The notes beneath the pieces are model-generated. The model saw only the letters and a list, made by a program, of their open reading frames with translations. It was not told the origin of the DNA and did no database searches. The position numbers and the translations under genes are program-made. 37,148 bases of DNA from a virus, in the IMG/VR virus record IMGVR_UViG_3300032223_000741, positions 1 to 37,148 of that record. One strand, given 5' to 3'. Shown piece after piece: positions 12,432-31,793 of this stretch (positions are counted from its first letter, which is position 1; every line of letters begins with the position of its first letter).

Positions 12432-15400
12432 TTAGTCTAAAATGCCTCTGTTATGCTTAACCGGCTTTGTGCTTTGATCCATGATCCCTGCATTTCTGGC
12501 GGCATGGGTTCCTGTCTTGGCAACATTGCCCATAGCCGAGATACCTCCAAGGGCTTTGGCAATGCCATACTGACGAGCGAATAGGAACATCATGGCAACA
12601 GCATCAATAGCAGCCTTGCCTGTGGAAATGTAATCCTCTGCCTCGGCTTGCGCTGGCTTTGTAATGACCTTCTTGGCACTACGATAGGCACCCGTGAACT
12701 TATCCAAGAGGGGATTGCCGGTAGTCAGGAAAGCGTGTTTGCCTGTGATCTTGTCTTTGATTAGCCCAGAGAGACCAGCGCCCAACCAGTAAATACCGTA
12801 TGTAGGGCCAGCAACGGCAGCGGCAAGGTACTCACTCAAAGAGTTGGCGTCTTCCTTTTCTTGCTGTGAGCCTGCGAGTGCTGCGAATCCTTGGAGGATT
12901 GCGGCTTCCATTACGCCCGACAAAACCCATGCCGTTGATAGCTTCCAGGCTTTGTCGCCAATGACCTTTGCCTTTTCTCCGACTCCGTTAGCTTCACGCA
13001 AATCACGGGGGGTAGTTTTAACTTCATGGGCAACGATTCCAAACCGCTGGCGCACAGGGCCGGCAAAGTTGGCTAGGAAGCGCATAAGGGCATTCCCTGC
13101 CTCTCCTGCTGGTCGATCAATGCCAAACCCTACAGGATTGGTCTGGTGAAGGATCTCGTCAGTCTTTGCACGGGCAACCTCATGGGCTTGTGCCTCGGTC
13201 AGCCCTTCCTTGATTGCGCTATGGTATGAAGCATCATAGGCGATTGCAGAAGAGATAGCGTTAGCCTGGTGGACAAACGCTGGAATCCAAGAATGCCCAA
13301 CCTCTCCGATAGCCTTACCAGCAAGGATAGCATTGCGGATAGGCGCCGGCTTGGAACCTGCCTTGATAGCCTCTCGGTCATTGTTGCTATGGGAAGCCTC
13401 TAGGAATCGTAGCACCTCACGGGAGTTGATCATGCCATCCTTACCCCATACTGGTTTGATAGCCTGACCCGTCAGCACTCTCGTCAGAGACCCCACAAAC
13501 TCGTCAGGTGCCAGCATCATAGATGATGACATGGAAGGGATAAGGTGCTTCAGCGTGACTTTGGCATTGTAGCCAAGAACGCTTGTTCCAAGGTAGTTGG
13601 CAGCTTCACGGGCAATTTCACCATTCATGCCAAGCAACTCGCCGGCGCTTGCTTTCTCCTTTCCAATAAATCCAGAGATTTCCTTGAGGGCATCACGGTA
13701 GGAAACCTTCTTTGCCTGTGCCGCCCGGAGGACATCGGCGTTTCCAAGGATCGCCCTCATGTCTCGGTTAAGGTCAACATGGGTCAGCCAGTAGTTCACC
13801 TGACGCATATGTGCCTGATAGACCAACCAGGCATTCTCATCTCGGATTTTGGCGGCATGGTTCTGACGGGAGATGCCAAAGCTAGGCGTCATGCTGGCAC
13901 CGCCTCCATGCTCCCCATCTAAATCCTTTGCTTTGTCCTGCGACTTGGAAGTATCCCAAACCAAGGTTGCATAGTTCTTAACCCTGGGCATATCTACCCC
14001 AAAGACCTCTTTGAACTTGGCGTTGATCTCGTCGTAGTTGTCGTAGGCTTTCTTGAGGTAGTCGTAATAGGCGCGGCCTGCTGCCGTCTTGTTGACAAAG
14101 GCTTCCAACTTGTCGGCTACCTCTTGGGTCATGCCGCTATACTCAAGGGATGGACGGGCATCTGCCTGACGCCATGAAAGGAGGCGTTGAATAGCTTCCA
14201 TCTCGGAAAGGTGCAGTTTGACCTTTTCCCCGGAGTCGGGAACTTGCTCCCTGACCTCTAGATACTTGACTCTGCTGGTGGATTTAAGACCGGCAAGCGT
14301 CCTTGCCATGTATTCCAAGTCAGCGCTGGAGCCTTTCCAGGTAGAGGGGTTCTGGACATATCCCTCTGCCGTGATTCGCTCAATCTTGTTCTTTTGGAAC
14401 TTGCGGTTTTCCTCAACCTCAATGCCGGTGTCTTTGCGCCCCGATAGCTTGGAAAGCGCCATCTGGAGTTTTGTGCGGTTGACAACGCTATCCTTGGTGT
14501 CGGCTCCAAAGATTGCCTGTAAGAGACTACGGGTATCTCTGATATCGGTAGCATGGTTGCGGTCATGCTCTGCATTGGCAGCATCGTAGATCCTGCGCTT
14601 CCAGTATGCCGCTTGCTCCTGACCTAGAATATGGTCAAGCAACTGCGCCCTAGTGAAGTGCGTGTCTAGGTAGGCGTCAATGCCAGCAAGGATACCGGCG
14701 TCCTTTTCTTTGGATTGATTGATCTCCGAGGTGGTCGCTTCCTTGCCATTGATAGCCTCAATAGCTTTTTGCTGCTCGGATTTTACCCAATCACGCCTTG
14801 CGACAAGTTGCTGATTCCAATCGTAGCGCCCCTCTCGGATGATCCCCTGTAGTGACTCCAGCGCCAGCGCCGACTGCTCGGCATTCATGTCAGGGTTATC
14901 TTGCCCCTTCAGCTTGCCTTTGGAATCCCAAGGCGAGAAGTTACCGTGAATCTGGGCAAGCAGGATTTCGTTAAAAAGCTCCTGCCGGCGGGTGATGGAA
15001 TCCTCGGAGCTTAATGGGGAGTCACCAGAGTCAATGGTGTCCATTTCAGCCTGACGGGTCTTGATGTAGTTAGAGACCTCGGCTGCGGTCATATGCCAGA
15101 GGGAACCTACCTCATTGACGATGGCGTGACCTTCAGCGCCTAGCTTACCCTTGGGGCCTGTGCCTCGCTCATTCTTGGGTTGCGCGGCATCGTATAGACG
15201 ATAGGCACGGTCTACATATTCGGCTCGGAGTTGGTGGTCAATCAGGTCACTTGCCTTCTGGATAGTCTTGATCAAGAAGTCAGCCTTTGCCTTGTCGCTG
15301 CCTAGGGAAGCGTACTTGGTATAAATGTTTCCGCCCTCGCCGGTGCCAGGGTTACGCCAGTTACGAGTGAGGGATGCCCTAACTTCAGCGGGCAGGGCGG

Positions 15401-18400
15401 ACATGATAGCGTTAAGCTCAACAAGGTTGCTTTCCATGTCTTTTCGGATGACCTCGGCGCTACTGGCCTTGCCTTCAGCGAAAGCCTCCATGACCTTATC
15501 TTGCCGTGCCGTGATAGCCTCAAACCGTTTGGCGGCATTCTCAAAGATCCTCGTCCTAGCAGTAGGGGAAGAGGCAATGCGCTTCTCTAGCTCCTGTTGG
15601 ACTCGTTCCTGATCTGCACGGGTGGAAATTGAAAAACGAATGTCGTTGCTATCTGGGTTGAACCTCTGCGAAAGCGGGATTACATTGCCGGCATCGTTGT
15701 AGACAATGGGTTTTGTGTTCTCGTAGTCGGTATCACTAAACTGCACTTTGATCATGGGAGAGTCTTGCCCTTCGCTTTTCCCAGCATCTTTCCATGTCAA
15801 TTTGAGTAGTTCATTAGGATCAAAATCTGCTCCTGCGTTTTCTTCAATTAACCAAGAAAGTCCTGATGGGATGTCTTTGAATTTTACAATGATAGTATCT
15901 GGATATTTGCCAGAAACGGCATCCTGCCTTTCTCGCCAAAGCTCAACTGCTTCATCATAATCGTTCTGGTCTCCGTGATGAAATTGATCTCGTAAAAGAA
16001 CTTGCACTTCCCTTTTAGGAATCGCCTCGTCAACTAGCCTCTGCTGCTCTGCCTCGTCGCCTGACTTGACTGCCGCATCGTAAGCCTCGTCACGGGCGCG
16101 GATGGAGAAGGAGGTGTTGGAGTCCTTGTTGGAATTGTTTTCCTGCACCCAATCAAGGAACTCCCTCACAGGAATCCTTTCCAACTTCATAGAGGAACGG
16201 GGGTCAACTACACCCATGATAAAGTTCCCGTCAGGACTTAATTCGGCGTCATTCCATTCAGCCAGCAAGTCATTTACCCCGTCTCTTCCTAGCCTATTGA
16301 CCAACTGCGGAAGGGATTCTTTAGGTGCTGTCATTTGACCCTTGGGCGTCTTCAGCCAATCCATCGGAAACTTCTCCTCTGTGCCATCTGGGAATCTCAC
16401 CAAGAGATTAGTGTCTAGCGGGTCTTTGCTGCGTTCTCCGATTACCTCAACCTCTGTGCCTTTAGGGAAACTGCCCCATTGCCTAGAGATGGCCTTGCGA
16501 TTGCCTGCCTCGTCACGGTCGCGGATGGAAAAAGCTACTGAATTGCCTTTGCCTTGCTCTTGATTTCCTTGCGAGTCTGCTCCGTTGCCTTGTCCCCGAC
16601 GCGACGAATCAGATCCAAGATCGATTCCGAGCTTGGACTTGATTGCTTGTTTTGTGTAGTCGGAGATTGATCCATCTGTCTTGGCGTAACGATAGCCGGC
16701 CCTCTTTGCCGAGTCAATCATGTAAAACCATCGGACTGCTTGCAATGCAGATGGCGGCAAATCTAGTCCAGTTTCTTGTTGGAATAGTTCATTAAATGAA
16801 TTGGCAAACTTCTGGAAGATTTCATGCTCATCAACATTGACGGGTAATCCCGTTCCATCTTTGAACATTTCTGGGAAATGAGACCTGATAAACCTGGCTT
16901 CCCAGATGTCCGTTGTGGTGAATCGGTCATCCCCTGTTGTGTTTAATGTGTAGGCACCAACCTTGGGGCCAAAAATAAACATTCTTGGAATAAGCTCATC
17001 CTGCCCTGTTGCCTGCATGACAACCTCGCGAATCTTACCAATATCACCAACGCTACCTTTATATCCCGCTTCACGGTTTACTTCATTAAGTTCTTTTGTT
17101 GTTACACCCTCATGCAGAAAATCATTTACTGCTTTCCATGATCCCAACTTGGAATAGAAATCCTCAAGTGCATGGGCTGCAAATATCTTGCCGGCACCAG
17201 TAGTGGATTCCAGGGTGAATGGGTTTCCTTCGCCAACTTTTCTATTTCCCTTTGCTGACCATTCCCATTTCATGGACTTGATTGAACCTTCTTTTTTCCA
17301 AAGGTTAATCAACTGAACGGCATCTTTCAGATTTCCAGCAAGCAGAGTGTTGGGAGAAGTAATTCCCGTGAACAGGCGAAACGCATGAAGATCCTCATCA
17401 TTAAACCCTGGTATAGCATCCTGTAGGTGCGCTTTAGTTAGTTCCCAATCCTTGTGATAATAATCAATGTATTGAGGATTTTCTTTTAGCCACTCCAGGA
17501 TATGCGGAAGGCTTTTTTCTGCTGCTGTTTTGAGATTCTTTAATGATGCTTTGAGCGTGTAGCCGGCTTCCTTAAGGGCTTTAGGCCAAACATTTTGCCA
17601 AAACTCATCTTCGGCTGCATCTGCTGATTTCTTAAACTCTTCCGATTTTGCCAATGCTGTTTCAGATGCTTTGCGAATACTGAAAAGCGTTCCTTGTTCT
17701 AAACCGGCATCAGCAACTTTTTCGCCCATCAGTTCCGCTTTAGCCTTTGCCTCTGCCGGCGCAAGGCGCTCGGTGATAGGCAAACCAATTCCCTCGGCTA
17801 GATGCTGTTCAAAATTGGCGTCAATCTTACCTTCCTTGATGCCGTTGTGCAGCACCTTGGCGCGGGAAAGGATGTTGTTGAAGTAGCGTACCATTGCCTT
17901 GAAGTAACCTTTCAATGCGCTAGGCGCGGCCTCACGGTTGGCAAAGTGACCGGCGGCATACTCCTCACCAATCGAGGTGACAGCTTCGATGATCTCCTGA
18001 CGGGTAGGGGTCTCGCTGGAAAGGTATTTGTGACCCGTGGCCTCCTCGGTCTGTCTGATCCATTTGGTCATCTGCTCATCAGAGACCTTCCCGCTATCCA
18101 GGGCGCGGGTTGTGGTGGCATCTAGCCTCTCATGGATTGCGGTGCGGGGGTTAGAGTTAAGTACCCTGATGACATCCTGGTACTGATCGCCCTTGGTCAT
18201 GCCGTCCACAACAACATCAGAAAGAGCCGTGTCCTCATGGATGCCGGCAATCCTCATGCGTTCTTTCAACTGCTCAAGCGGGATGCCCTGCTCAAGCATA
18301 TCTTGGAAAGTGACCTTTTCCTTATCAGGGGTCAACTTGGTTTCGTAGGTGCGTCCCTCTACTCTTTGCTCTTTATCGGCCTGCTCAAAGTAGCGGATGG

Positions 18401-20453
18401 TTTCATGCAGGGTTTTGAGTTGCCCCTCATCATGCGCTTTGTACGCCATTGCCAAGGCTTGCATAGCGGCATCCTGATCCTTGGTGCGGTAGACCTCCTG
18501 CATCCCACCATTCCCGTCTGGGGCCATGATGACATGGGTGCCGTCATCAGTTGTGGTCAGGGTAGGGGTCTCATGGCTTTCAGCGGCATCTTTGGTCGCC
18601 TGACCATCCTTTCGAGCTTGGGAAATCCCACTAGCAATGTTCTCCGGGGTGCGCTTGCCGGCTTCCTCGGCAATGACACCCTGCACCTCGTTCAGAGGGG
18701 TAGACTGAATCTTGCTGATCTGTTCGTCGCTGAATCCGTATTTCTTCAGCGTCTTGGTATCTCCGACCACTTTGGCTAGGGCGGCAACCTGATCTGTATC
18801 GTGGTAGGTCTTGCCGGCTCCGATAGCAGACAGGAACATCATTGAACCAAGAAGTTCTGGTTGTGACTTCCACAACTCAATCAACTGCTCTTTTACTGAT
18901 GCACCAGGGTTGAAATCCTTGTCGATAGCCTGCGAGATGGCGTCACCGGCAATTTGGGATAGGCTAGAAAAATCCATGCCGGCAGTTCCAATGGCGACAT
19001 GGGCAGCATAATTTGCGGCAGTACCTTCAGCGGCAAACTGCGCTAGGGTACGCTCCACGGCAGGAAAGATTCCCGATACTCCAGGTAGAGAGATAGACAT
19101 CAGCGCCGACATGGGGGCGGCATATGCCTCTGCCATCAAAGTAGCCTTACCAATGCTCATGTTGGGGTTATTGGCTAGGATTCGCTGCTGCTGGTCGGCA
19201 ACCGTGCTTCCGTACATCAAACCAACTCCGACAATAGGATCGGCGGCAAAAGCGGCAATGTACGGGGTGGCATTCAGCGCCGAGGAAATGCTCTTGTTGA
19301 TAATCCCAGGTAGACCATACCCAAGGGGAAGGTCATTCATGCCTTGAGACGCCTGACGAAGCTCGGCGGCAATGGAGAGATTCTTAATCTTCTGCTGACC
19401 GGCCTCAATCCCTTGCGTGTCGGGGGTGGATGGCAATCCATTAACCTCGTTAATCTCGCCTTGCGCCCCGCCATGCTCTGCATCTTTGATCTGGGCGGCA
19501 GTATAGACCCGCTGCGCTGCCGTGCTTATGGAAGCCGACATATTGCCGGTAGTACGCAACAGACTTTGCCCCATATTCCAGAGGGGGTTGTTGATGGATG
19601 CAGTAGGGGCAAGCGTCTGGGCATAGGTGTTAGCCAATGCGTAGACTTGTTTGCGTTGCTCGTCAGAGTACCCAGACAACTTGTCAATCAATCCCGTGGC
19701 GCTTTCAGCAACAGGGCGGGTGATTTCGTTCCCCTTGTGAAATGTGTCCACGATCTCCTTGGCAAGCGCACCCTCTGGGGTGTTCATCTGCTGCTGAACA
19801 GGCAAATACACCTGATTAAAAATCTGCAACTGCTGCGCCTCTGGGATTCCTTTGAGACCGGCATACTCGTTCTGTTGCCACTCGCTGAAAGCGGAGAGGG
19901 GATTGCGTCCCATGCCCTGATCGGCAAACGATACGGCATCTTGGACTGCTTTATTTTGAAGGTTGGTAACTGCCTGCTTCCTAGCGTCCTCCTGTTCAAA
20001 ATGAGCCTGTAGCTTGGATCGAAAGTCGGAATCACTCTTGGTCGGTTGCCATCCCATTTGCGCGGCAAATCCTTTCTTAAATCGGTCATACCCTTCAGAT
20101 ACCTCGTCAATCGGTGCGCCGGTCAGGAAAGAAAGCGCCCTCATATTTACTGCCATATCCCTAAATGCTTGGGGATCAGCGTAAGAATTGGATTTCTTTA
20201 CTGTGTCATTTGCCATCCCACCAAGGTTGGCAGGGTCTTTCAGCATGGAAAAAACTAGACCTTGCTCCTGCTGGTATGCCTTGGTATGGGAAAGATCCTC
20301 ACCAAAGACCCGTGTATCTGTAGCCTGGTTGATTTCTTGGGGTAGGGGAGACCTAGAAAGGTCTTCAAACTTGTTGACTGCCTGCTGCGTTTGCAACTGG
20401 TCAAGGGTATCAACAGAGGTAGGTTGAGTGCTAAAAGGGTCGTTTTCGGCCAT
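12432..20453 (-). CDS. Giant internal virion protein, 2673 aa (T7 gp16 position, polyvalent)
   Basis: Takes up about 22% of the genome. It occupies the T7 gp16 position, after two other internal virion proteins and before the fibre, so it is probably packaged in the capsid and ejected into the cell. The N-terminal 600 residues are helical with a hydrophobic part (about 395-560). The middle (about 920-1610) is modular: each module begins after an F-S-I-R/S motif at 924, 1308, 1449 and 1607, as in phage polyvalent proteins that deliver several effector domains. The phrase NVIPLSQRFNPDSNDIRFSI (about 1590-1609) is typical of such proteins. The C-terminal third resembles gp16-like proteins (YYDYLKKAYDNY, VDMPRVKNYATLVWD) and ends with hydrophobic helices (about 2490-2660). 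No transglycosylase motif was recognised here. First gene of a transcript. Confidence 0.85.
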   Translation of the reverse strand: MAENDPFSTQPTSVDTLDQLQTQQAVNKFEDLSRSPLPQEINQATDTRVFGEDLSHTKAYQQEQGLVFSMLKDPANLGGMANDTVKKSNSYADPQAFRDMAVNMRALSFLTGAPIDEVSEGYDRFKKGFAAQMGWQPTKSDSDFRSKLQAHFEQEDARKQAVTNLQNKAVQDAVSFADQGMGRNPLSAFSEWQQNEYAGLKGIPEAQQLQIFNQVYLPVQQQMNTPEGALAKEIVDTFHKGNEITRPVAESATGLIDKLSGYSDEQRKQVYALANTYAQTLAPTASINNPLWNMGQSLLRTTGNMSASISTAAQRVYTAAQIKDAEHGGAQGEINEVNGLPSTPDTQGIEAGQQKIKNLSIAAELRQASQGMNDLPLGYGLPGIINKSISSALNATPYIAAFAADPIVGVGLMYGSTVADQQQRILANNPNMSIGKATLMAEAYAAPMSALMSISLPGVSGIFPAVERTLAQFAAEGTAANYAAHVAIGTAGMDFSSLSQIAGDAISQAIDKDFNPGASVKEQLIELWKSQPELLGSMMFLSAIGAGKTYHDTDQVAALAKVVGDTKTLKKYGFSDEQISKIQSTPLNEVQGVIAEEAGKRTPENIASGISQARKDGQATKDAAESHETPTLTTTDDGTHVIMAPDGNGGMQEVYRTKDQDAAMQALAMAYKAHDEGQLKTLHETIRYFEQADKEQRVEGRTYETKLTPDKEKVTFQDMLEQGIPLEQLKERMRIAGIHEDTALSDVVVDGMTKGDQYQDVIRVLNSNPRTAIHERLDATTTRALDSGKVSDEQMTKWIRQTEEATGHKYLSSETPTRQEIIEAVTSIGEEYAAGHFANREAAPSALKGYFKAMVRYFNNILSRAKVLHNGIKEGKIDANFEQHLAEGIGLPITERLAPAEAKAKAELMGEKVADAGLEQGTLFSIRKASETALAKSEEFKKSADAAEDEFWQNVWPKALKEAGYTLKASLKNLKTAAEKSLPHILEWLKENPQYIDYYHKDWELTKAHLQDAIPGFNDEDLHAFRLFTGITSPNTLLAGNLKDAVQLINLWKKEGSIKSMKWEWSAKGNRKVGEGNPFTLESTTGAGKIFAAHALEDFYSKLGSWKAVNDFLHEGVTTKELNEVNREAGYKGSVGDIGKIREVVMQATGQDELIPRMFIFGPKVGAYTLNTTGDDRFTTTDIWEARFIRSHFPEMFKDGTGLPVNVDEHEIFQKFANSFNELFQQETGLDLPPSALQAVRWFYMIDSAKRAGYRYAKTDGSISDYTKQAIKSKLGIDLGSDSSRRGQGNGADSQGNQEQGKGNSVAFSIRDRDEAGNRKAISRQWGSFPKGTEVEVIGERSKDPLDTNLLVRFPDGTEEKFPMDWLKTPKGQMTAPKESLPQLVNRLGRDGVNDLLAEWNDAELSPDGNFIMGVVDPRSSMKLERIPVREFLDWVQENNSNKDSNTSFSIRARDEAYDAAVKSGDEAEQQRLVDEAIPKREVQVLLRDQFHHGDQNDYDEAVELWRERQDAVSGKYPDTIIVKFKDIPSGLSWLIEENAGADFDPNELLKLTWKDAGKSEGQDSPMIKVQFSDTDYENTKPIVYNDAGNVIPLSQRFNPDSNDIRFSISTRADQERVQQELEKRIASSPTARTRIFENAAKRFEAITARQDKVMEAFAEGKASSAEVIRKDMESNLVELNAIMSALPAEVRASLTRNWRNPGTGEGGNIYTKYASLGSDKAKADFLIKTIQKASDLIDHQLRAEYVDRAYRLYDAAQPKNERGTGPKGKLGAEGHAIVNEVGSLWHMTAAEVSNYIKTRQAEMDTIDSGDSPLSSEDSITRRQELFNEILLAQIHGNFSPWDSKGKLKGQDNPDMNAEQSALALESLQGIIREGRYDWNQQLVARRDWVKSEQQKAIEAINGKEATTSEINQSKEKDAGILAGIDAYLDTHFTRAQLLDHILGQEQAAYWKRRIYDAANAEHDRNHATDIRDTRSLLQAIFGADTKDSVVNRTKLQMALSKLSGRKDTGIEVEENRKFQKNKIERITAEGYVQNPSTWKGSSADLEYMARTLAGLKSTSRVKYLEVREQVPDSGEKVKLHLSEMEAIQRLLSWRQADARPSLEYSGMTQEVADKLEAFVNKTAAGRAYYDYLKKAYDNYDEINAKFKEVFGVDMPRVKNYATLVWDTSKSQDKAKDLDGEHGGGASMTPSFGISRQNHAAKIRDENAWLVYQAHMRQVNYWLTHVDLNRDMRAILGNADVLRAAQAKKVSYRDALKEISGFIGKEKASAGELLGMNGEIAREAANYLGTSVLGYNAKVTLKHLIPSMSSSMMLAPDEFVGSLTRVLTGQAIKPVWGKDGMINSREVLRFLEASHSNNDREAIKAGSKPAPIRNAILAGKAIGEVGHSWIPAFVHQANAISSAIAYDASYHSAIKEGLTEAQAHEVARAKTDEILHQTNPVGFGIDRPAGEAGNALMRFLANFAGPVRQRFGIVAHEVKTTPRDLREANGVGEKAKVIGDKAWKLSTAWVLSGVMEAAILQGFAALAGSQQEKEDANSLSEYLAAAVAGPTYGIYWLGAGLSGLIKDKITGKHAFLTTGNPLLDKFTGAYRSAKKVITKPAQAEAEDYISTGKAAIDAVAMMFLFARQYGIAKALGGISAMGNVAKTGTHAARNAGIMDQSTKPVKHNRGILD

Positions 20454-24048: not shown

Positions 24049-26424
24049 TTAGTTCTGTGTAGCCTCGCTAACTTCAAAATTCACCACAAGGGCGGCAACG
24101 GTAAGGGGAACCGGCTGCGTCTGGCGGACATAAAGATCAACGCCATCTGCCCAATTAGAGGAGGCATATGCCCTCTCGTACCCGTTCAGCACCGGGGGCG
24201 AGGAGTCCATAACATCGGTCAGGGTGCGCGAAACAAGAGGAAGCCAGTTGGTGCCATCGGTAGAGATTTCCCCGCCCGTGGACTGGTAGACCTTGAGGTT
24301 GATGCGCGGAATCCTCATGCGCCGGCCTTGTGAAGTGCCGTCCTGCAAATTGGTATCGACCCTCTGGGGAACCAGCGTTGAGGTGAAGGGCAAACCAACA
24401 AGCACCCTGGACGCAGGAATCTGTAGAGTGATGCTTCCGCTGACTACGGTGGGTTGGGACACAATAAGCGATCCTACGGCATTGTCGGCCCATACAGAGA
24501 CCGTCTTGCCCTCTAGGTGAGATAGCCCCGTGATCGTGGAGGTAGGGGAACCATAGGTCTTGAGAATGCCGGCATCCACATACCACCAGTTAGACTTGTC
24601 GGCGGTATCCAGGGAGTCACGCATACCGAGCTTGAAGCGTTCCACATAGCGTTTTGTGGAACCATTGATGGTGCGCTTGACCAGTACCCAGACTTCATCC
24701 TCGGCATTGACTCCGTTAATTGTGGCAACCGATTCAAAGGTGCCATCGGTAATATGACGGGCAAAGCCCACCACTTGCTGCTCTCGCTCGTAGGTCATAG
24801 AGACCAACTGACCATCTCCTCGGACAAACCATAGGATTGCGTCTGTTACTCGCTGGTAAGCAGTTTCTACAATGCCGTTGCGGGTGGTATGCTCGGCTAG
24901 GGCGGTGACATCGTTAGAGACCCAAGACTCGCTTGCCCAGGTGTAGACCAGTTCCCTGATCTTACGGGACATCCGCTGGATATAGAGGATTGTGTCGTTG
25001 ATGATTTGCGCCCCAAGGCTAGAGGAGCCGTAGTGGGACTGCTGACGCACATTGACATTGGTAGGGGTAATCGGGCGGGTCTGGTCACTTGCAGACATTG
25101 ACCACTCATCAAGAGTCGTGCCGATCAGGAGGGCGCTCTTACTGACAAGCCATTGGATTGCTCCGCCGGTAGTGGAGGCCAAGGTGAAAAACCAAGAGTC
25201 AGCGTCATAGGCGCCCTGCTTGAAGTTCTGGAAATCGTTGCTGTAGCTACCCCATAGCGAGGAAGGATTGCTGGCGGTGCCGGCATAAATGATGCGGCTA
25301 TCGTGGAGGGCAACGGCATTAGGGTATCCTTGGATGGATGAGAAAGCACCCTCACGCCATTGGGAAGTAGCTGCTGTGCCTCCAAGGGTCTTCAGCACCT
25401 TGGCAGTAACCGTGGTGGAATTGGTGAATCCTGTGATACGGACAAGCCCCCGGAGGGTAGGGTCAAGAGGGGAAAGCATCACCCTTGGTGCCGTGCTGCT
25501 GGTGGTGGCACTGAATCCACTCACCACAAGGCGGAATAGGGTTTCTACAGATTCCTCTCCGCTGGAGGTAGCGTTGTAGTCGCCGGCGCTCTTATAGGTA
25601 CGAACCGTCTTCCAAGTCGTGCCGTTGTCGGTAGACGCCTGCAAGTCAACTTGCGCCGTCCATGTCCCAAAGGTCTGAAGACTCCACTTGCCCAGGATCT
25701 TGATCGTCCCGCTGGTGGCATTGGTATTGTCAATGTTTTGACTGATATAGGTGGTCGGGTTCTGGTGGGCTAACTCGTAGTAGCTCCCGACATGACCACT
25801 CTGGAAGATTCCTGTGGAAGCAGTCAGCGTGATTGCCGACCCCGTGGTAGCCGACGGTGTAATCGTGGTCGTACTCGTATTCTGGTCGAGCATGGGCGCC
25901 CAATTATTCTTGATTGAGGCATCCCCAAAAGGAACCTCACCAATCGTCCAAGAAGTATCTGAAAGACGCGATAAGCGTTGGGGCGGGTAAGAAGGATGGG
26001 TAAGGTATGCAATGTTGTTGATCTGGCAGACTTGAACGGCTCGGAGGTCTGCCTCTTGGTAGGGGTGAGTTGGCGTAATGCCGGTAGCCGTATTGGTGTA
26101 ATCGACCTGGGCTGCTTCAACCGGGGTGCCGCTGTTGGTAATAAGCGCACCGTTTTTCCAGAAACGGATGTAGCCGACTCCAAGCTCCATCACGACATGG
26201 TTGGCATCAGATAGATTAAGACCAATCAGCCGGCAGCGGGTGGAGGATAGCTTGGCTTCTCCAAGGTACTCGGTGCCTGCACGACGGTTGGCAGGCCCAT
26301 AGGGAGTAATGATGAAGTTCTCCAGTACCTTGCAGGAATTGCGGTACTTCTCAAGGTTGGTGCGTGACTCCAGGTAAGGAGACCACTCTCCAGAGTTAAA
26401 GCTAGAGATCAGTTGACTGATCAT
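24049..26424 (-). CDS. Tail tubular protein B (T7 gp12-like), 791 aa
   Basis: The start MISQLISSFNSGEWSPYLESRTNLEKY, then NFIITPYGPANRRAGTEYL (about 36-54), VMELGVGYIRFWKNG (about 71-85) and WEARFI-like beta repeats later, is the standard start of gp12-type nozzle proteins in podoviruses. It forms the tail nozzle below the gp11-type adaptor. Start ATG overlaps the stop of the tail tubular A gene by one base. No long insertions or depolymerase domain were noticed. Confidence 0.9.
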   Translation of the reverse strand: MISQLISSFNSGEWSPYLESRTNLEKYRNSCKVLENFIITPYGPANRRAGTEYLGEAKLSSTRCRLIGLNLSDANHVVMELGVGYIRFWKNGALITNSGTPVEAAQVDYTNTATGITPTHPYQEADLRAVQVCQINNIAYLTHPSYPPQRLSRLSDTSWTIGEVPFGDASIKNNWAPMLDQNTSTTTITPSATTGSAITLTASTGIFQSGHVGSYYELAHQNPTTYISQNIDNTNATSGTIKILGKWSLQTFGTWTAQVDLQASTDNGTTWKTVRTYKSAGDYNATSSGEESVETLFRLVVSGFSATTSSTAPRVMLSPLDPTLRGLVRITGFTNSTTVTAKVLKTLGGTAATSQWREGAFSSIQGYPNAVALHDSRIIYAGTASNPSSLWGSYSNDFQNFKQGAYDADSWFFTLASTTGGAIQWLVSKSALLIGTTLDEWSMSASDQTRPITPTNVNVRQQSHYGSSSLGAQIINDTILYIQRMSRKIRELVYTWASESWVSNDVTALAEHTTRNGIVETAYQRVTDAILWFVRGDGQLVSMTYEREQQVVGFARHITDGTFESVATINGVNAEDEVWVLVKRTINGSTKRYVERFKLGMRDSLDTADKSNWWYVDAGILKTYGSPTSTITGLSHLEGKTVSVWADNAVGSLIVSQPTVVSGSITLQIPASRVLVGLPFTSTLVPQRVDTNLQDGTSQGRRMRIPRINLKVYQSTGGEISTDGTNWLPLVSRTLTDVMDSSPPVLNGYERAYASSNWADGVDLYVRQTQPVPLTVAALVVNFEVSEATQN

Positions 26425-27014
26425 TAGTAAATCCCGCTATAACGGCTCTTTACGAGGTCAGAGTTGATCCAGAGGGGCTTGTGGCGAGGATAGTTGTCCA
26501 CGGCATCAATCCTTCGGGCTTCTCCAAGCATCTGCTTGAAATCACCTTCAAGGCGCTGCTGGATGTCCATGCTGCCTCCTAGTGGCTTTGCTAGTTTAGC
26601 TCCGATAGCTAGGGAAAGAACCTCAACGAAGATTGGGTCAAAGAGGTTAGGGTCTACGACATCCTTGATGTAGGTGATGTAGGCCGTGGACTCGTCAGTC
26701 ATCAACTTGTCGCCAATGATTTCAAAGTCACAATTAGGTTCGTTGCTCTTAAAAGAGTTGAGCGTTTGGATACGGGCAAAATCAGAAGGCAACTGGTAAG
26801 AATAATCCCAATCAAACTCCGGGGGCGTTGCCATTGCCGCGAGTTGGGTCATGCCGACTGCCCAATTCCATTCGTGCATACGCAGGAGGGAGGCGAGCGT
26901 GGGTGCGTAGTGCAGCTTGCAGAACCGAGCTTCAATGCTTGGATCGTCCAACGACATAATCATCTGATTGCCAATTTTAGAGAGGGCAAGGTTGCAGATG
27001 GTCGTGGAATCCAT
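26424..27014 (-). CDS. Tail tubular protein A (T7 gp11-like adaptor), 196 aa
   Basis: MDSTTICNLALSKIGNQMIMSL, then LHYAPTLASLLRMHEWNWA (about 34-52), YQLPSDFARIQTL (about 73-85) and YITYIKDV...FVEVLSLAIGAKLA are the usual landmarks of gp11-like adaptor proteins, including the length near 196 aa. It joins the portal to the nozzle. Its ATG at 27014 follows the capsid terminator by about 17 nt, so it must be read through that hairpin or from a promoter I could not find. Confidence 0.9.
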   Translation of the reverse strand: MDSTTICNLALSKIGNQMIMSLDDPSIEARFCKLHYAPTLASLLRMHEWNWAVGMTQLAAMATPPEFDWDYSYQLPSDFARIQTLNSFKSNEPNCDFEIIGDKLMTDESTAYITYIKDVVDPNLFDPIFVEVLSLAIGAKLAKPLGGSMDIQQRLEGDFKQMLGEARRIDAVDNYPRHKPLWINSDLVKSRYSGIY

Positions 27015-27084: not shown

Positions 27085-28014
27085 TTACTTGGTGGTGTCG
27101 GCCAGGATCTTCACAACGCCGGTCTCAAGGAGACGGGAGGCTCCGAGAACCGCTGTGCTGCGGATCTGAAGCGCATGGGACTGCGTAGGCAGAACGTCCA
27201 TGTAGCTCTTCTTGCCACCATCCACGAACACCGCGCTGTTCTTCTGGTAGGCGATGCAGGAACGGATGTTCGATGCAACCGGCAGAAGCTCGGTACGGAT
27301 GACGTTGAAACCGAGGAAGTGATTGACATCCCCGTCAACGAGCGCACGAACGCTGTTGAAGAGATTGCTTGTCACCTCGGTTGTGGCGAGGAGGTCGGCA
27401 ACTTCCTTGGCGCTAATCACCAGGATGCGGTCTTCGGCGGGAGCCTCGGCAGCATCAAGGATCTTCTTGGCCTGACGGATCTTGGCGATGGTCAGGGAGG
27501 AGTTGGTAGCCGTTCCGCCGGCGGGGACGTAATCAACGGCAACCGTCTGTCCGCTGCCAAGGGCAACAGTCGTGGTTGTGTTGTTGAGTCCGAACCCGGA
27601 GGAGGTCGAAGCCGTGTCGGTGATCGTGGCGTTGCCGAGCAAAGCGTTGATCAGGATGGTGTCAGCCGTACGGTTGTACGCCGCAGCCTGGGACTGCATA
27701 CACTCGCTGGTGGGCAGGACAACACTTCCGAGGAAGAGGTTGTCGAACTCATCAAACGTGTTGGCGACATCGTAGGGGGTGGGGTATGCCCAACGGGCAG
27801 GCATGGTGACATCACTCACAGGAGTCGAGGCGGCACGGGAAGTGACGCTGCTCATGCTGGTGAGGCCGTACTGATTGAAACGAACTGCGGCGCCCTGGGC
27901 GGAAACGACCTTGGTCTTTTCCTTGAGGCGGGCCTCCATCTGCTGAAGGAGGTGGTTGAAGTTGGTCTCGTACTGGATCACAAAGTGATCGGGAACTTGG
28001 GTAATAGCTGCCAT
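27085..28014 (-). CDS. Major capsid protein, 309 aa
   Basis: The sequence MAAITQVPDHFVIQYETNFNHLLQQMEARL at the N-terminus (an N-arm and E-loop-like start), EDRILVISAKEVADLL (about 192-207), FLGFNVIRTELLPV (about 231-244) and VFVDGGKKSYMDVLPT...LLETGVVKILADTTK at the end are the landmarks of the HK97-fold capsid family found in T7-plan podoviruses. Ala/Thr/Ser-rich. It is the only gene between a promoter (28170-28198) and a strong terminator (27031-27070), which fits a high-copy product. It has no visible Shine-Dalgarno site; the leader is structured instead. Confidence 0.9.
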   Translation of the reverse strand: MAAITQVPDHFVIQYETNFNHLLQQMEARLKEKTKVVSAQGAAVRFNQYGLTSMSSVTSRAASTPVSDVTMPARWAYPTPYDVANTFDEFDNLFLGSVVLPTSECMQSQAAAYNRTADTILINALLGNATITDTASTSSGFGLNNTTTTVALGSGQTVAVDYVPAGGTATNSSLTIAKIRQAKKILDAAEAPAEDRILVISAKEVADLLATTEVTSNLFNSVRALVDGDVNHFLGFNVIRTELLPVASNIRSCIAYQKNSAVFVDGGKKSYMDVLPTQSHALQIRSTAVLGASRLLETGVVKILADTTK

Positions 28015-28035: not shown

Positions 28036-28158
28036 TGTGTAGGTTATCTAACTTAAACCGAGTAAATGGTTGTCTCTTGCGAGATCACTTAACTTCGGGG
28101 ATGACCAACCTACACAGATCCACAGATGGCAGTTGCCAGAGGGGTTGTCTCTCGGTTT
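28036..28158 (-). promoter_or_regulatory. Structured capsid-gene leader with interleaved inverted repeats
   Basis: TGTGTAGGTT (28036-28045) pairs with AACCTACACA (28107-28116), and AAACCGAG (28055-28062) pairs with CTCGGTTT (28151-28158). The order a-b-a'-b' is a pseudoknot topology if both form, or two alternative hairpins. A 10-bp direct repeat GGTTGTCTCT lies at 28068-28077 and 28143-28152. The innermost arm ends 22 nt before the capsid ATG at 28014. There is no open reading frame of note in 28015-28386. Confidence 0.6.
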
Positions 28159-28169
28159 GTCTATTTAAC

Positions 28170-28198
28170 CACCTAACATCCCTCTTCTAACTGGTCAA
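28170..28198 (-). promoter_or_regulatory. Putative capsid-gene promoter with long leader
   Basis: Minus strand TTGACC (28198-28193), 17 bp, TAGGTG (28175-28170). The spacer AGTTAGAAGAGGGATGT closely matches that of the promoter at 32165-32193. The leader would be about 150 nt, unlike the leaderless promoters elsewhere. Confidence 0.6.
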
Positions 28199-28299
28199 CG
28201 ATAATTCTTACAAAAAGATTGCACTATATGAAATGATTTGTCTAGGCAGCAATAGTACCCGTCACGCCTCTTGCTGAGGGTTCAAATCCCACTCCGACC

Positions 28300-28326
28300 C
28301 TTTAATAACGCATTTCCTTATTAAAG
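28300..28326. repeat. AT-rich inverted repeat, 9-bp arms
   Basis: CTTTAATAA (28300-28308) and TTATTAAAG (28318-28326) are exact reverse complements around a 9-nt loop. It lies just downstream (minus direction) of the SSB terminator and before the capsid promoter, and may be an operator or an extra stem of the terminator. Confidence 0.5.
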
Positions 28327-28386: not shown

Positions 28387-28698
28387 TTAGAAGGGAATAT
28401 CGTCATCGTCACGCTGCTTCTGGTATCCGTTGCCCTTGGCCTGATTGTGGGCAGAATAAGCCGGTGCAGGGGGGTAATCGTTCCGCTTTGGGGAGTTGGC
28501 ATAGCTGCCTCCCTGGGGCTTGTCGGTGATGCTGATGGTCAACATCTCCTTGCCAGACTTGGACATCTTCTCCCATGCCGCAATCTGGTACTCCACCCCT
28601 CCAAGGGTCATCTTGCCTGACCACTTGGGGGCTTTCGGATTCTCGCTCCCCTTGAGGAACATGACTCCTTTACGCTCGTTATCGAATTGATTATCCAT
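28387..28698 (-). CDS. SSB-like protein with canonical acidic C-terminal tip, 103 aa
   Basis: The last residues are RDDDDIPF, the tip by which bacterial SSB binds partner proteins (RecO, PriA, exonuclease I, DNA polymerase III chi). The N-terminal half (VMFLKGSENPKAPKWSGKM, then VEYQIAAWEKMSKSGKEMLTISI) is a small beta-rich domain like those of short phage single-strand DNA-binding proteins, shorter than the usual OB fold. A flexible Asn/Gln/Pro-rich linker joins the two. It probably coats single-stranded DNA and recruits host or phage replication and recombination proteins. It is unexpectedly placed between the scaffold and capsid genes. Overlaps the scaffold stop by 8 nt. Confidence 0.8.
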   Translation of the reverse strand: MDNQFDNERKGVMFLKGSENPKAPKWSGKMTLGGVEYQIAAWEKMSKSGKEMLTISITDKPQGGSYANSPKRNDYPPAPAYSAHNQAKGNGYQKQRDDDDIPF

Positions 28699-29593
28699 TT
28701 TTCAGAAGGTCGGAGACCAAATCGCCGGTTGCTTTGTCGCCTGCTTGCAGTTTTGAATACAGAGGGTTGGATGGGTTGGTCATAATGTCCATAGCCCGTG
28801 CCTTGCCTGCCATCATGGTTCCTGCGGTATCAGAGGAGACGATCTTGTCGTCACTCATCATCCGGGCGAGTCGGTTGAAAGCTAGGACAACAGAAGGGTC
28901 AGAGAAGCCCTTGGAGTTGACATCGACGCCGGCTACCTGGGCGGCGCGACGGGCAACGCTCAACTCGACCTCAAACTTGTCTCCCCATGCTTCAGCAAGA
29001 GCCTTGCGCCCTGCTTCAATTTCCGCTTTCTGCTGGATAGCAGCCTGCTCCGCCCTGGAAGACTCAAAGGCAGCGTATTTAGCCATGATCTTGTCCATCT
29101 GGGCAGGAGTGACGCCTGCTTCATGGGCAACCGAGTTAAACTCCTTGGCTACATTGTCATCCCACTCGTAGCCGGCAGGCAGATCCTTGGGACGCAACTG
29201 GTAGGCGTCAGCGGAATCGGGGACACCGAGCTTCTTGAGGAATGCGGCTTTCTCTTCCGGGGAAGCCTTCTCGTCAGGGATCAGGATAGCATCGGCCTTC
29301 TTGCCGAGCATCTTCTGCTGGGAGGTAAGGGTCTTGAGGACGCCGTTGATGTCCTTGAATTGACCAAGGATTTGCTTGGAGTCGGCAAGGTCTTTGGGGA
29401 GACGGTCTAGCCAACCTTCGGAAAACTCTCCCTTCTCATTGACCCAGGGCGAGTCAGTAGAGGGAGCCGGCGGTGCCTGATTGATCAGGCTATCGGCAGA
29501 GGGTTCGGGAGTGCTGACTGCTGGAGCAGGATCAGCGTTAAGAAGCGCATTGCCGTCTACGGGCGTTGCGACTTGTCCTTCGGATGTAATCAT
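28691..29593 (-). CDS. Scaffolding protein, 300 aa
   Basis: Acidic and helical, with a Pro/Ala-rich N-terminus, SPWVNEKGEFSEGWLDRLPKDL (about 47-68), and then KLGVPDSADAYQLRPKDLP (about 120-138), both recurring elements of podoviral scaffolds; the C-terminal region is helical and basic at the end (LVSDLLKNG). It lies at the T7 gp9 position, after portal and before capsid. It directs procapsid assembly and should leave before DNA packaging. Confidence 0.85.
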   Translation of the reverse strand: MITSEGQVATPVDGNALLNADPAPAVSTPEPSADSLINQAPPAPSTDSPWVNEKGEFSEGWLDRLPKDLADSKQILGQFKDINGVLKTLTSQQKMLGKKADAILIPDEKASPEEKAAFLKKLGVPDSADAYQLRPKDLPAGYEWDDNVAKEFNSVAHEAGVTPAQMDKIMAKYAAFESSRAEQAAIQQKAEIEAGRKALAEAWGDKFEVELSVARRAAQVAGVDVNSKGFSDPSVVLAFNRLARMMSDDKIVSSDTAGTMMAGKARAMDIMTNPSNPLYSKLQAGDKATGDLVSDLLKNG

Positions 29594-30032: not shown

Positions 30033-31793
30033 TTACATCATTGAGGACATCTGCTGTTGCATCCCTTGAACCATTGGAGAATCTCCCTTGATGCTGCCCA
30101 CCTTCTGGGCGACATCGGCAGCATGGGCTTGAGCCTGCATTTCCTGCTGTTGCTGTGCGGCCTGCGCCCTCTGCTGGCGCATCTGGGCAACCTGATCTTT
30201 GGGTCGGAGGTATTCGCTATCCATTCCGGCGGCTAGGGCGCCTTCACGCACCATCTTGTCGGTGTCAAAGTTGTCAAAGGCCGAAGGGTCTTGAGTGACC
30301 TGGACAAGCATGGATGCCCTCTGGATCGTGGCATCAGTAGCACCCTGCTCCATGTTCTTAACCGCTAGGGCAATGCGGCTATTGAAGTTAACCTTTGGTT
30401 CGGGAATAAAGAGTTCCCCGGTCGGCCCTTGCTGAATGAGGGCTTCCGGGGGTGGGGGGAATGCTCCGTTCCTTGCCAAGATGCCGTAGACTCGCTGAAG
30501 GAGAGGGGTCAGGAGTTCAGTCGTGAGACGGGAGAAGGTAGGAGAGAATTGAGCTAGACGCTCGGCGTTGCGGGCGTTGACCTCGGTAGCTGTCATCCGA
30601 TTAGGGGCGCCGGCCTCCTGTTGGGTGAACATCTGGAAGAGAGGGACGCTGAAAGCATCGTTGATGTCATCCTGCTTCTGCTTCACTCGCTCTAGGCCTA
30701 TGTCGTAACGACCCTGGGTAGCCCATTCAATAGGACGGGAGTTAGGGTCAGCGGCGTTGAAGTAGGTGACGCCACCGGCTCGGAGGTCGATGGATGACTC
30801 CAAAGAATCGGGAGCGAGAATGCGTGGGAAGGCAGCCAGCTCGGCTAGACTGTCCATTTGCTTCTGCAAGAAGTTCAACTGCCTCAAGTCAGGCATGGCG
30901 ACCCATGATGGAGACCATCCATAGGCTGACTTCTGCCACTTGAGGTAACGGGTAGCCATGAAAGGCAACTCGTCATATCCAGAGTCACGCATCACAAACT
31001 TGCCCTTCTCCTCGACATAGACCGAGGCAATGGGCTTGTTGGGGCCATCTAGCTTCTTCTTGTCGCGCTGACCCTCCTCGCGGGGATAGACCGCATGGAT
31101 GATGTGGAACTTCTCTTCCATGCCCTTGCCATTGGGTTCGTTGTAGCATTTGCGAACCGTGTCGCTGACATTCTCAATGCCGAATTGCTGGACGATCTGC
31201 CTAGCAGTCATCTCAATGCGGCGGAACATGGTGTCCACATATCCCTCGTAGTTCTCGGAGATACAGAAGGTGCCTACATCAACATTGGTGAAGGTGATAG
31301 GGAGCTTCTCTCCGGGTTCCACGAAGAGGACTGCGGTGCCGAAGCATCCGCGGTCTAGGTAAAGCTCATGGATAGCCTGGTGGAAGTTGCTACGGGCAAG
31401 CGTCTCCATGACGATCTCGGTGACTTCAGCAAAGTATTCTTGGACGCCATCTCCATCTTCGATGGACTCTGGAGCTTCAAAACTGCACCAGCGGCTATCA
31501 GCCGGCGTGATGTAGCTCATGCAACCGGCGGCAAGCACTTGGTTAGCCCTGACCCCGGTGGAGTCATAGAGGCGAGACTCACGCTCGGTATTGGGCGTAA
31601 TCGAGGTAGCAAGAATGTAGCTCTTGCGGGGCATGACTAGCTCCGCGATCTGCTGCCACATTGACATCCAGTAATTGCGGTCAGCCTCTAGCTTTGACCA
31701 CCTAGCCACAATGCCGGCGGCAAGCTCGGTCTTGTTACCACCCTTGGCAGGAGTATCAACTGACTCGGCAACTGCTTCTTTGTCTTTTGCCAT
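30033..31793 (-). CDS. Portal protein (T7 gp8-like head-tail connector), 586 aa
   Basis: Forms the dodecameric DNA channel at one capsid vertex. Landmarks: LEADRNYWMSMWQQIAELVMPRK (about 35-57; extent only), SRLYDSTGVRANQVLAAGCMSYITPADSRWCSFEAPE (about 75-111), RRIEMTARQIVQQFG (about 187-201), GAPNRMTATEVNARNAERLAQFSP (about 402-425). It ends in a Gln/Met-rich tail. The start overlaps the stop of the proline-rich gene by one base. Confidence 0.92.
   Translation of the reverse strand: MAKDKEAVAESVDTPAKGGNKTELAAGIVARWSKLEADRNYWMSMWQQIAELVMPRKSYILATSITPNTERESRLYDSTGVRANQVLAAGCMSYITPADSRWCSFEAPESIEDGDGVQEYFAEVTEIVMETLARSNFHQAIHELYLDRGCFGTAVLFVEPGEKLPITFTNVDVGTFCISENYEGYVDTMFRRIEMTARQIVQQFGIENVSDTVRKCYNEPNGKGMEEKFHIIHAVYPREEGQRDKKKLDGPNKPIASVYVEEKGKFVMRDSGYDELPFMATRYLKWQKSAYGWSPSWVAMPDLRQLNFLQKQMDSLAELAAFPRILAPDSLESSIDLRAGGVTYFNAADPNSRPIEWATQGRYDIGLERVKQKQDDINDAFSVPLFQMFTQQEAGAPNRMTATEVNARNAERLAQFSPTFSRLTTELLTPLLQRVYGILARNGAFPPPPEALIQQGPTGELFIPEPKVNFNSRIALAVKNMEQGATDATIQRASMLVQVTQDPSAFDNFDTDKMVREGALAAGMDSEYLRPKDQVAQMRQQRAQAAQQQQEMQAQAHAADVAQKVGSIKGDSPMVQGMQQQMSSMM

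Follow-up and report, generated by a model that had tools for sequence, protein, structure and literature searches.

The DNA analysed in this study is a virus record from IMG/VR that is 37,148 bases long, and the whole of this stretch is referred to below as the window. The major capsid protein (MCP) gene of the window encodes 309 aa and was assigned to Pfam PF19821 (Phage_capsid_2, E 2.5e-56) and phrog_3437 (PHROG 3437). Since the gene lies on the minus strand, the sense strand of its leader is also the minus strand. The MCP leader RNA extends from about 28165 down to 28014 and is about 150 nt long. Reading of the sequence by eye showed no upstream ORF in the leader, as ATG is absent from 28165 up to the MCP start. 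The MCP gene is without a Shine-Dalgarno (SD) site, as an earlier note on this sequence had stated. This is true but is not a peculiarity of the MCP gene, because several other genes in the window (24049-26424, 26424-27014, 28691-29593, and 30033-31793, among others) also lack a clear SD site. The window phage encodes a large terminase of the ordinary kind. A predicted single-strand DNA-binding protein (SSB) gene is located directly upstream of the leader, at 28387-28698. The features of the locus are as follows; P0 to P5 are helices, a and b are the two helices proposed in the earlier note, and the groups of relatives are described below.

27085-28014, minus strand: MCP gene, 309 aa
28015-28035, minus strand: spacer AACCCCUAAACACUAAACAUU up to the AUG, without SD site by sequence reading
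28036-28045, minus strand: 3' strand of P5, AACCUACACA, the earlier arm a', 21 nt upstream of the AUG in the window
28055-28062, minus strand: 3' strand of the earlier arm b, CUCGGUUU; its UCGG is the 3' strand of P4b
28068-28077, minus strand: direct repeat, copy 2, with an ACAA bulge at 28070-28073 between P3 and P4
28074-28083, minus strand: P3 hairpin CUC-GCAA-GAG, 100% paired in 35 leaders, with a CG to UA double change
28086-28091, minus strand: 5' strand of P4, UAAGUG, pairing with CAUUUA at 28063-28068; 90% paired in group 1
28095-28098, minus strand: 5' strand of P4b, CCGA, pairing with UCGG at 28058-28061; 92.9% paired in group 1
28103-28110, minus strand: 3' strand of P0, GGUUGGUC, overlapping the 5' strand of P5 by 4 nt (28107-28110); the overlap nucleotides co-vary with both partners
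28107-28116, minus strand: 5' strand of P5, UGUGUAGGUU, the earlier arm a; supported by the swap test and by U-A to A-U and G-C to U-A double changes
28127-28138, minus strand: small hairpin within P1, UGGC-AACU-GCCA, restricted to group 1, 100% paired; double changes in 3 of 4 pairs
28143-28152, minus strand: direct repeat, copy 1, AGAGACAACC; ACAA bulge of P1 at 28145-28148, closed by A28150-U28116 and G28149-C28117, with U28118 opposite
28151-28158, minus strand: 5' strand of the earlier arm b, AAACCGAG, present and not kept as a helix with 28055-28062
28154-28161, minus strand: 5' strand of P0, GACAAACC, pairing with 28103-28110 with an internal A.G mismatch
28173-28199, minus strand: promoter-like block GTTGACNNGTTAGNNGAGNGATGTTAG, immediately ahead of the leader, kept in most close relatives; sole match in the window, 0 expected

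The arms proposed for the leader were all found in the window. Arm a (10 bp, TGTGTAGGTT/AACCTACACA at 28107-28116/28036-28045) and arm b (8 bp, AAACCGAG/CTCGGTTT at 28151-28158/28055-28062) are both exact, they interleave in the crossing order that had been claimed, and all of their strands are on the minus (sense) strand of the leader. The direct repeat GGTTGTCTCT, which reads AGAGACAACC in the sense orientation, occurs twice, at 28068-28077 and 28143-28152. Dinucleotide-preserving shuffling was repeated 3000 times. Exact inverted repeats of 10 bp arose in 26 of the shuffled sequences and of 8 bp in 374, and a crossing 10+8 pair never arose (0/3000), which rules out a chance origin of the arms. 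The window leader had a folding z-score of only -1.6.

Relatives were gathered from IMG/VR by search with the capsid protein and by alignments. Homologous leaders precede the MCP gene in three groups, whose MCPs are 67-98% identical to that of the window in group 1, 66-75% identical in group 2, and 54-58% identical to the group 2 query in group 3. In group 4, the MCP is about 45% identical, an SD site is present, and the arrangement of the leader is related but different. Among groups 1-3 the leader sequence diverges greatly from group to group and the pairing stays. The gene end preceding the leader reads differently in group 2, where it seemingly belongs to another gene than SSB. No useful DNA similarity between the window and described phages was found, and no MCP relative in bacterial genomes was confirmed using the first alignment.

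The pairing was examined in a MAFFT alignment of 14 leaders from close relatives (group 1) and in a wider set of 35 leaders from groups 1-3. With helices a and b as proposed, 83.6% of the cells in the 14 group 1 leaders were paired, and double changes occurred in three pairs. Helix b (AAACCGAG/CUCGGUUU) had double changes in only 1/8 pairs and was broken or carried G-U in L006, L007, and L009, and it was rejected as a conserved helix because the revised helices score better. Its strands belong instead to two better-supported helices, P0 and P4b. With the revised helices (P0, the small hairpin, P4b, P4, and P3), 95.2% of the cells were paired and 11 of the 24 pairs were double-changed. Shuffle controls overstate significance where sequences are related, and with this reservation the group 1 leaders contained 32 double-change cells against 7 in shuffles, the covariation was 0.39 against 0.19 shuffled (0/500), and the 35 leaders contained 100 double-change cells against 36 shuffled (0/500). 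When the helices were slid, the covariation was at most 0.09, and the signal had gone at a slide of one base.

P0 was 95.9% paired in the 14 close relatives (double changes in 5/7 pairs) and 84.8% paired in the 35 leaders (double changes in 8/9 pairs). A mismatch lies in the same region of P0 in most groups: A.G in the window and L052, C.A in L110, and G.A in L108. By reading, P4b corresponds to CCGC/GCGG in group 2, and L104 has ACCG/CGGU at this place. The closing pair of P4 varies among A.C, A-U, and G-C. The P1a pairs are 100% standard across the 35 leaders and include AU to GC changes; the pair beside the first ACAA is always A-U or G-C. The check for compensatory changes in homologues, which had been put forward as a means of refutation, thus upholds a conserved RNA structure and arm a within it, and replaces arm b with P0 and P4b. 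From these alignments, the leader very probably contains a structured and so far undescribed RNA element for the control of capsid protein synthesis, which has been kept by compensation in 35 related phage leaders.

Helix a, here P5, joins the strand around an invariant GUAG (the central strand M) to the strand preceding the AUG. Its two strands change together between leaders: UGUGUAGGUU/AACCUACACA in the window, GAGUAG/CUACUC in L006, GUAGGAA/UUCCUAC in L051, GUGUAGGUGG/CCACCUACAC in L104, and GAGUAGUUGG/CCAACUACUC in L110. A swap test with 50,000 permutations was carried out, in which the best partner was searched for own and foreign strands alike. The score with own partners was 254 for P5, against 209 ± 9.6 after swapping (0/50000), and 220 for P0, against 185 ± 8.4 (0/50000). 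A control region gave no own-partner signal. There were exceptions among the strands placed by hand: P5 is broken in L062 and mismatched in L013, and a gap is needed in L010 and L016.

The order of the strands is P0 5', P5 5', P0 3', P5 3'. Because P0 and P5 cross, the topology is that of an H-type pseudoknot. The two crossing helices supported by covariation are P0 and P5, and helix b is not one of them. The pseudoknot-type structure claimed for the MCP leader is therefore supported with its helix a, and its second helix was wrongly drawn. The 5' strand of P5 and the 3' strand of P0 have one to about four bases in common, so that the two helices compete. Three overlap nucleotides fit both partners in 8/16 leaders, with the strands placed by hand. 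In nested folding of 11 leaders, the state with P5 was 3-13 kcal/mol below the state with P0. The strand overlap and the energies together suggest two competing pairings, with the pseudoknot as an intermediate or shared state. The lower predicted energy of the P5 state would fit a kinetic switch.

In most leaders of groups 2 and 3, the AUG follows the 3' strand of P5 after a few nt. The P5 of group 1 stops about 21 nt short of the AUG, so direct occlusion of the start is uncertain in that group. Group 4 and the pelagiphages have an SD site, and P5 as such is absent from them. By eye, alternative pairings can be drawn in group 4, namely P0 GAGCAG/CUGCUC against UGCUCCC/GGGAGCA, which change to GCGG/CCGC and CGCCC/GGGCG in L217. 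In many leaders of group 4, such as L144, the P1 hairpin holds CUCCUU, which is complementary to the SD sequence AAGGAG before the MCP gene; this is a possible extra SD-sequestering contact.

Both copies of the direct repeat form one and the same asymmetric internal loop, in which ACAA faces a single pyrimidine. The loop is flanked by a G-C pair on one side and by a C.A, U-A, or C-G pair on the other. ACAA is on the 5' strand in P1 and on the 3' strand in P3/P4. The same loop is present in group 4 as ACAC or ACAA. One such hairpin precedes the MCP gene in the cultured pelagiphages HTVC010P, HTVC035P, HTVC100P, HTVC203P, Lederberg, Greip, and Skadi. The loop is AGAA or AUAA there, and the P3 and P4 stems covary when the strands are read by hand. 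No such hairpin was seen by eye in Baldr. A similar hairpin is present in Vibrio phage CKB-S2, ahead of its MCP gene, and in podovirus ct8d5349.

The promoter-like block at 28173-28199 stops 11 nt ahead of the first paired base, and no sigma-70 consensus was found. Transcription probably starts shortly downstream, and the position of the block fits a transcript that would keep all arms. Group 2 has an intrinsic terminator of 12 bp ahead of the TTGAC. After a strong terminator, a conserved palindrome GGGTGTACGCACACC lies near the -10 position in group 2 (e.g., L052, about 2850-2870), and it is possibly an operator or a 5' hairpin. In many group 4 phages, a perfect hairpin (ATCAGTTTCGACTGAT) a short distance ahead of the SD site repeats the promoter sequence GACTGATACC.

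A covariance model, R1, was built from the 35 leaders. In the 18 group 1-3 records searched whole, R1 gave exactly one match per genome (18/18), at the MCP start, and the matches ended at the MCP AUG wherever the leader had been read. The element thus occupies a fixed position directly upstream of one gene family. R1 also found the held-out leader L214 (MCP 49%) at E 2e-5. In group 4 it was weak or silent (E 0.2-1, not significant), and the four weak matches there were all at the MCP leader. A pattern of the group 4 loop was found in at least 120 viral places, and among the 80 matches listed, 70 of the 71 with enough sequence precede an MCP gene, which begins about 125-175 nt further on. The same pattern had 78 matches in about 85,000 bacterial and archaeal genomes; an MCP gene adjoins one match, and the others look like chance. 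As the pattern was derived from these leaders, these counts show confinement to MCP leaders and are not an independent discovery. The pattern search also located an MCP gene with a group 4 leader in L288 (from 712 onwards), a 56.8-kb contig of a Verrucomicrobia MAG, which is a possible hint to the host of group 4. The group 2 motif TTCGGMCCCATGTAGG had a dozen unfamiliar matches elsewhere in viral contigs, which were chance-like and had no leader around them.

No family in Rfam release 15 (4227 models) matched any leader tested from any group, at gathering or permissive thresholds. Weak matches to mir-1421, DsrA, BM-sr0117, and tRNA-Sec were far under the gathering scores and were rejected. 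No paper on the capsid-leader element was found in the openly accessible literature, and PMC12753301 contains nothing on it.

The leader is, in our judgement, probably a cis-acting structured RNA of about 150 nt that controls MCP translation. We read it in this way because its structure is kept by compensation, it is placed before one gene, and in groups 2 and 3 a strand of it abuts the start codon. Two hairpin arms, P1 and P4/P3, each present the same ACAA-opposite-pyrimidine loop, and the central strand M, which is complementary to both partners, can pair either upstream (P0) or downstream (P5). As P0 and P5 cross and overlap, either a pseudoknot with a short P5 could form or a long P5 could replace P0. 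P0 would form first, during transcription, and a long P5 would hinder ribosome loading at the SD-less start. The balance between P0 and P5 might be shifted by a binder of the ACAA loops, for which a phage protein is the likeliest candidate, for instance capsid protein not yet assembled. A phage protein is the simplest guess for the partner, since phages with different listed hosts retain the ACAA-type loop. The sequence analysis shows the conserved structure, its position, and the complementarity of M to both partners; translation as the output, the way in which the switch would turn, and the nature of the binder are what it suggests. A bolder proposal, which we put forward tentatively, is an old and so far undescribed RNA family reaching from podophages in several environments to the HTVC010P-type pelagiphages abundant in the ocean, in which ACAA hairpins sense unassembled capsid protein and overlapping helices turn capsid translation on or off. 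If true, this would be an assembly-coupled capsid thermostat in DNA phages.

The leader might also be mainly an autoregulatory operator, to which free MCP or an assembly protease or scaffold would bind at both ACAA hairpins and repress translation until assembly consumes it, with P0 and P5 only shaping the site. The element was found only before this MCP family. The ACAA-type loop persists across the listed hosts (Pelagibacter, Vibrio) and even where MCP identity is only about 30%, and this persistence suggests that a conserved phage factor recognises it. However, the dual covariation of P0 and P5 exceeds what an operator needs, and we regard this reading as possible and not as the favoured one. 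A 5' structure that mainly shields the most abundant mRNA from decay, without regulation, is unlikely. A strong structure at the probable 5' end would suit such a role, as would the separate transcription unit that is likely in group 2, where a terminator is directly upstream, but a protective hairpin requires neither two conserved internal loops nor two competing covarying helices.

The compact conserved core and an overlapping helix resembling an expression platform recall a small-molecule riboswitch. This is very unlikely: the element is restricted to one phage gene, it matches no Rfam family and hence no known riboswitch class there, and only one of the 78 bacterial and archaeal pattern matches adjoins an MCP gene, the rest being chance-like. 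A trans-acting non-coding RNA, for example a packaging RNA like phi29 pRNA, which stands before the MCP gene by happenstance, would be conserved, present in a single copy per genome, and of about the right size. But the element always reaches the MCP start, in groups 2 and 3 its last helix strand directly adjoins the AUG, the phage has its ordinary large terminase, and no phi29-type packaging RNA was matched in Rfam at gathering or relaxed thresholds, so that we hold this to be highly improbable. Sites for a repressor acting on DNA, an alternative raised in the earlier note, would account for inverted repeats as such. Compensatory changes, found in 11/24 pairs among the close relatives, preserve the pairing while the sequence changes, and DNA sites rather than RNA structure are for this reason disfavoured, to the point of being extremely improbable.

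Leader RNAs of this general kind are known from other systems. The leader of T4 gene 32 contains an autoregulatory pseudoknot that is bound by the single-stranded-DNA-binding protein encoded downstream. The MCP leader resembles it in that a pseudoknot in a phage mRNA leader precedes a gene for an abundant protein. However, the gene following the leader here is that of the MCP and not of an SSB binding it, and the overlapping P0/P5 and the two internal-loop hairpins are further differences. The RNA phages MS2, Qbeta, and PP7 have coat-protein operator hairpins, which are likewise bulged hairpins near a phage gene start, and the hairpins described here are a candidate coat-protein site. The operators have a single bulged A, whereas this DNA phage has ACAA opposite a pyrimidine together with a pseudoknot. 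The autoregulatory leaders of the ribosomal proteins S4 (alpha operon) and S15 contain pseudoknots. Alternative pairings including a pseudoknot over the start region are common to both cases, as is translation control, which for the MCP leader is suggested by the analysis. Those leaders precede ribosomal protein genes, whereas no such gene follows here and the element was found only in phages.

MCP dosage in tailed phages is mostly discussed in terms of promoter strength and gene order. A conserved, covarying RNA that precedes the capsid gene in a widespread group of phages is a concrete candidate for a post-transcriptional control point. Cultured pelagiphages (HTVC010P and relatives) and a Vibrio phage carry part of it, which makes probing in real infections feasible. 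The ACAA-opposite-pyrimidine loop, which occurs twice in opposite orientation, is a well-defined motif for structure solving or for a search model.

Several other features were noted in the window and its relatives. On the plus strand at 28240-28300, there is a lookalike of a tRNA 3' half (GGTTCAAATCC T-loop, TCCGACC end) with the 5' half missing, and ARAGORN made no call there. Near the same place, relatives have either tRNA-Trp or an unusual tRNA whose anticodon consists of two bases, antisense to the MCP gene. In many group 4 phages (L116-L170), an apparent tRNA 3' end on the sense strand is located directly before the MCP promoter. A single ORF of 2673 aa occupies 12432-20453 on the minus strand of this 37-kb phage. 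L009 (1887-3011) and L015 (566-1696) encode MCPs of 375-377 aa, about 67 aa above the others, with an insertion in the MCP.
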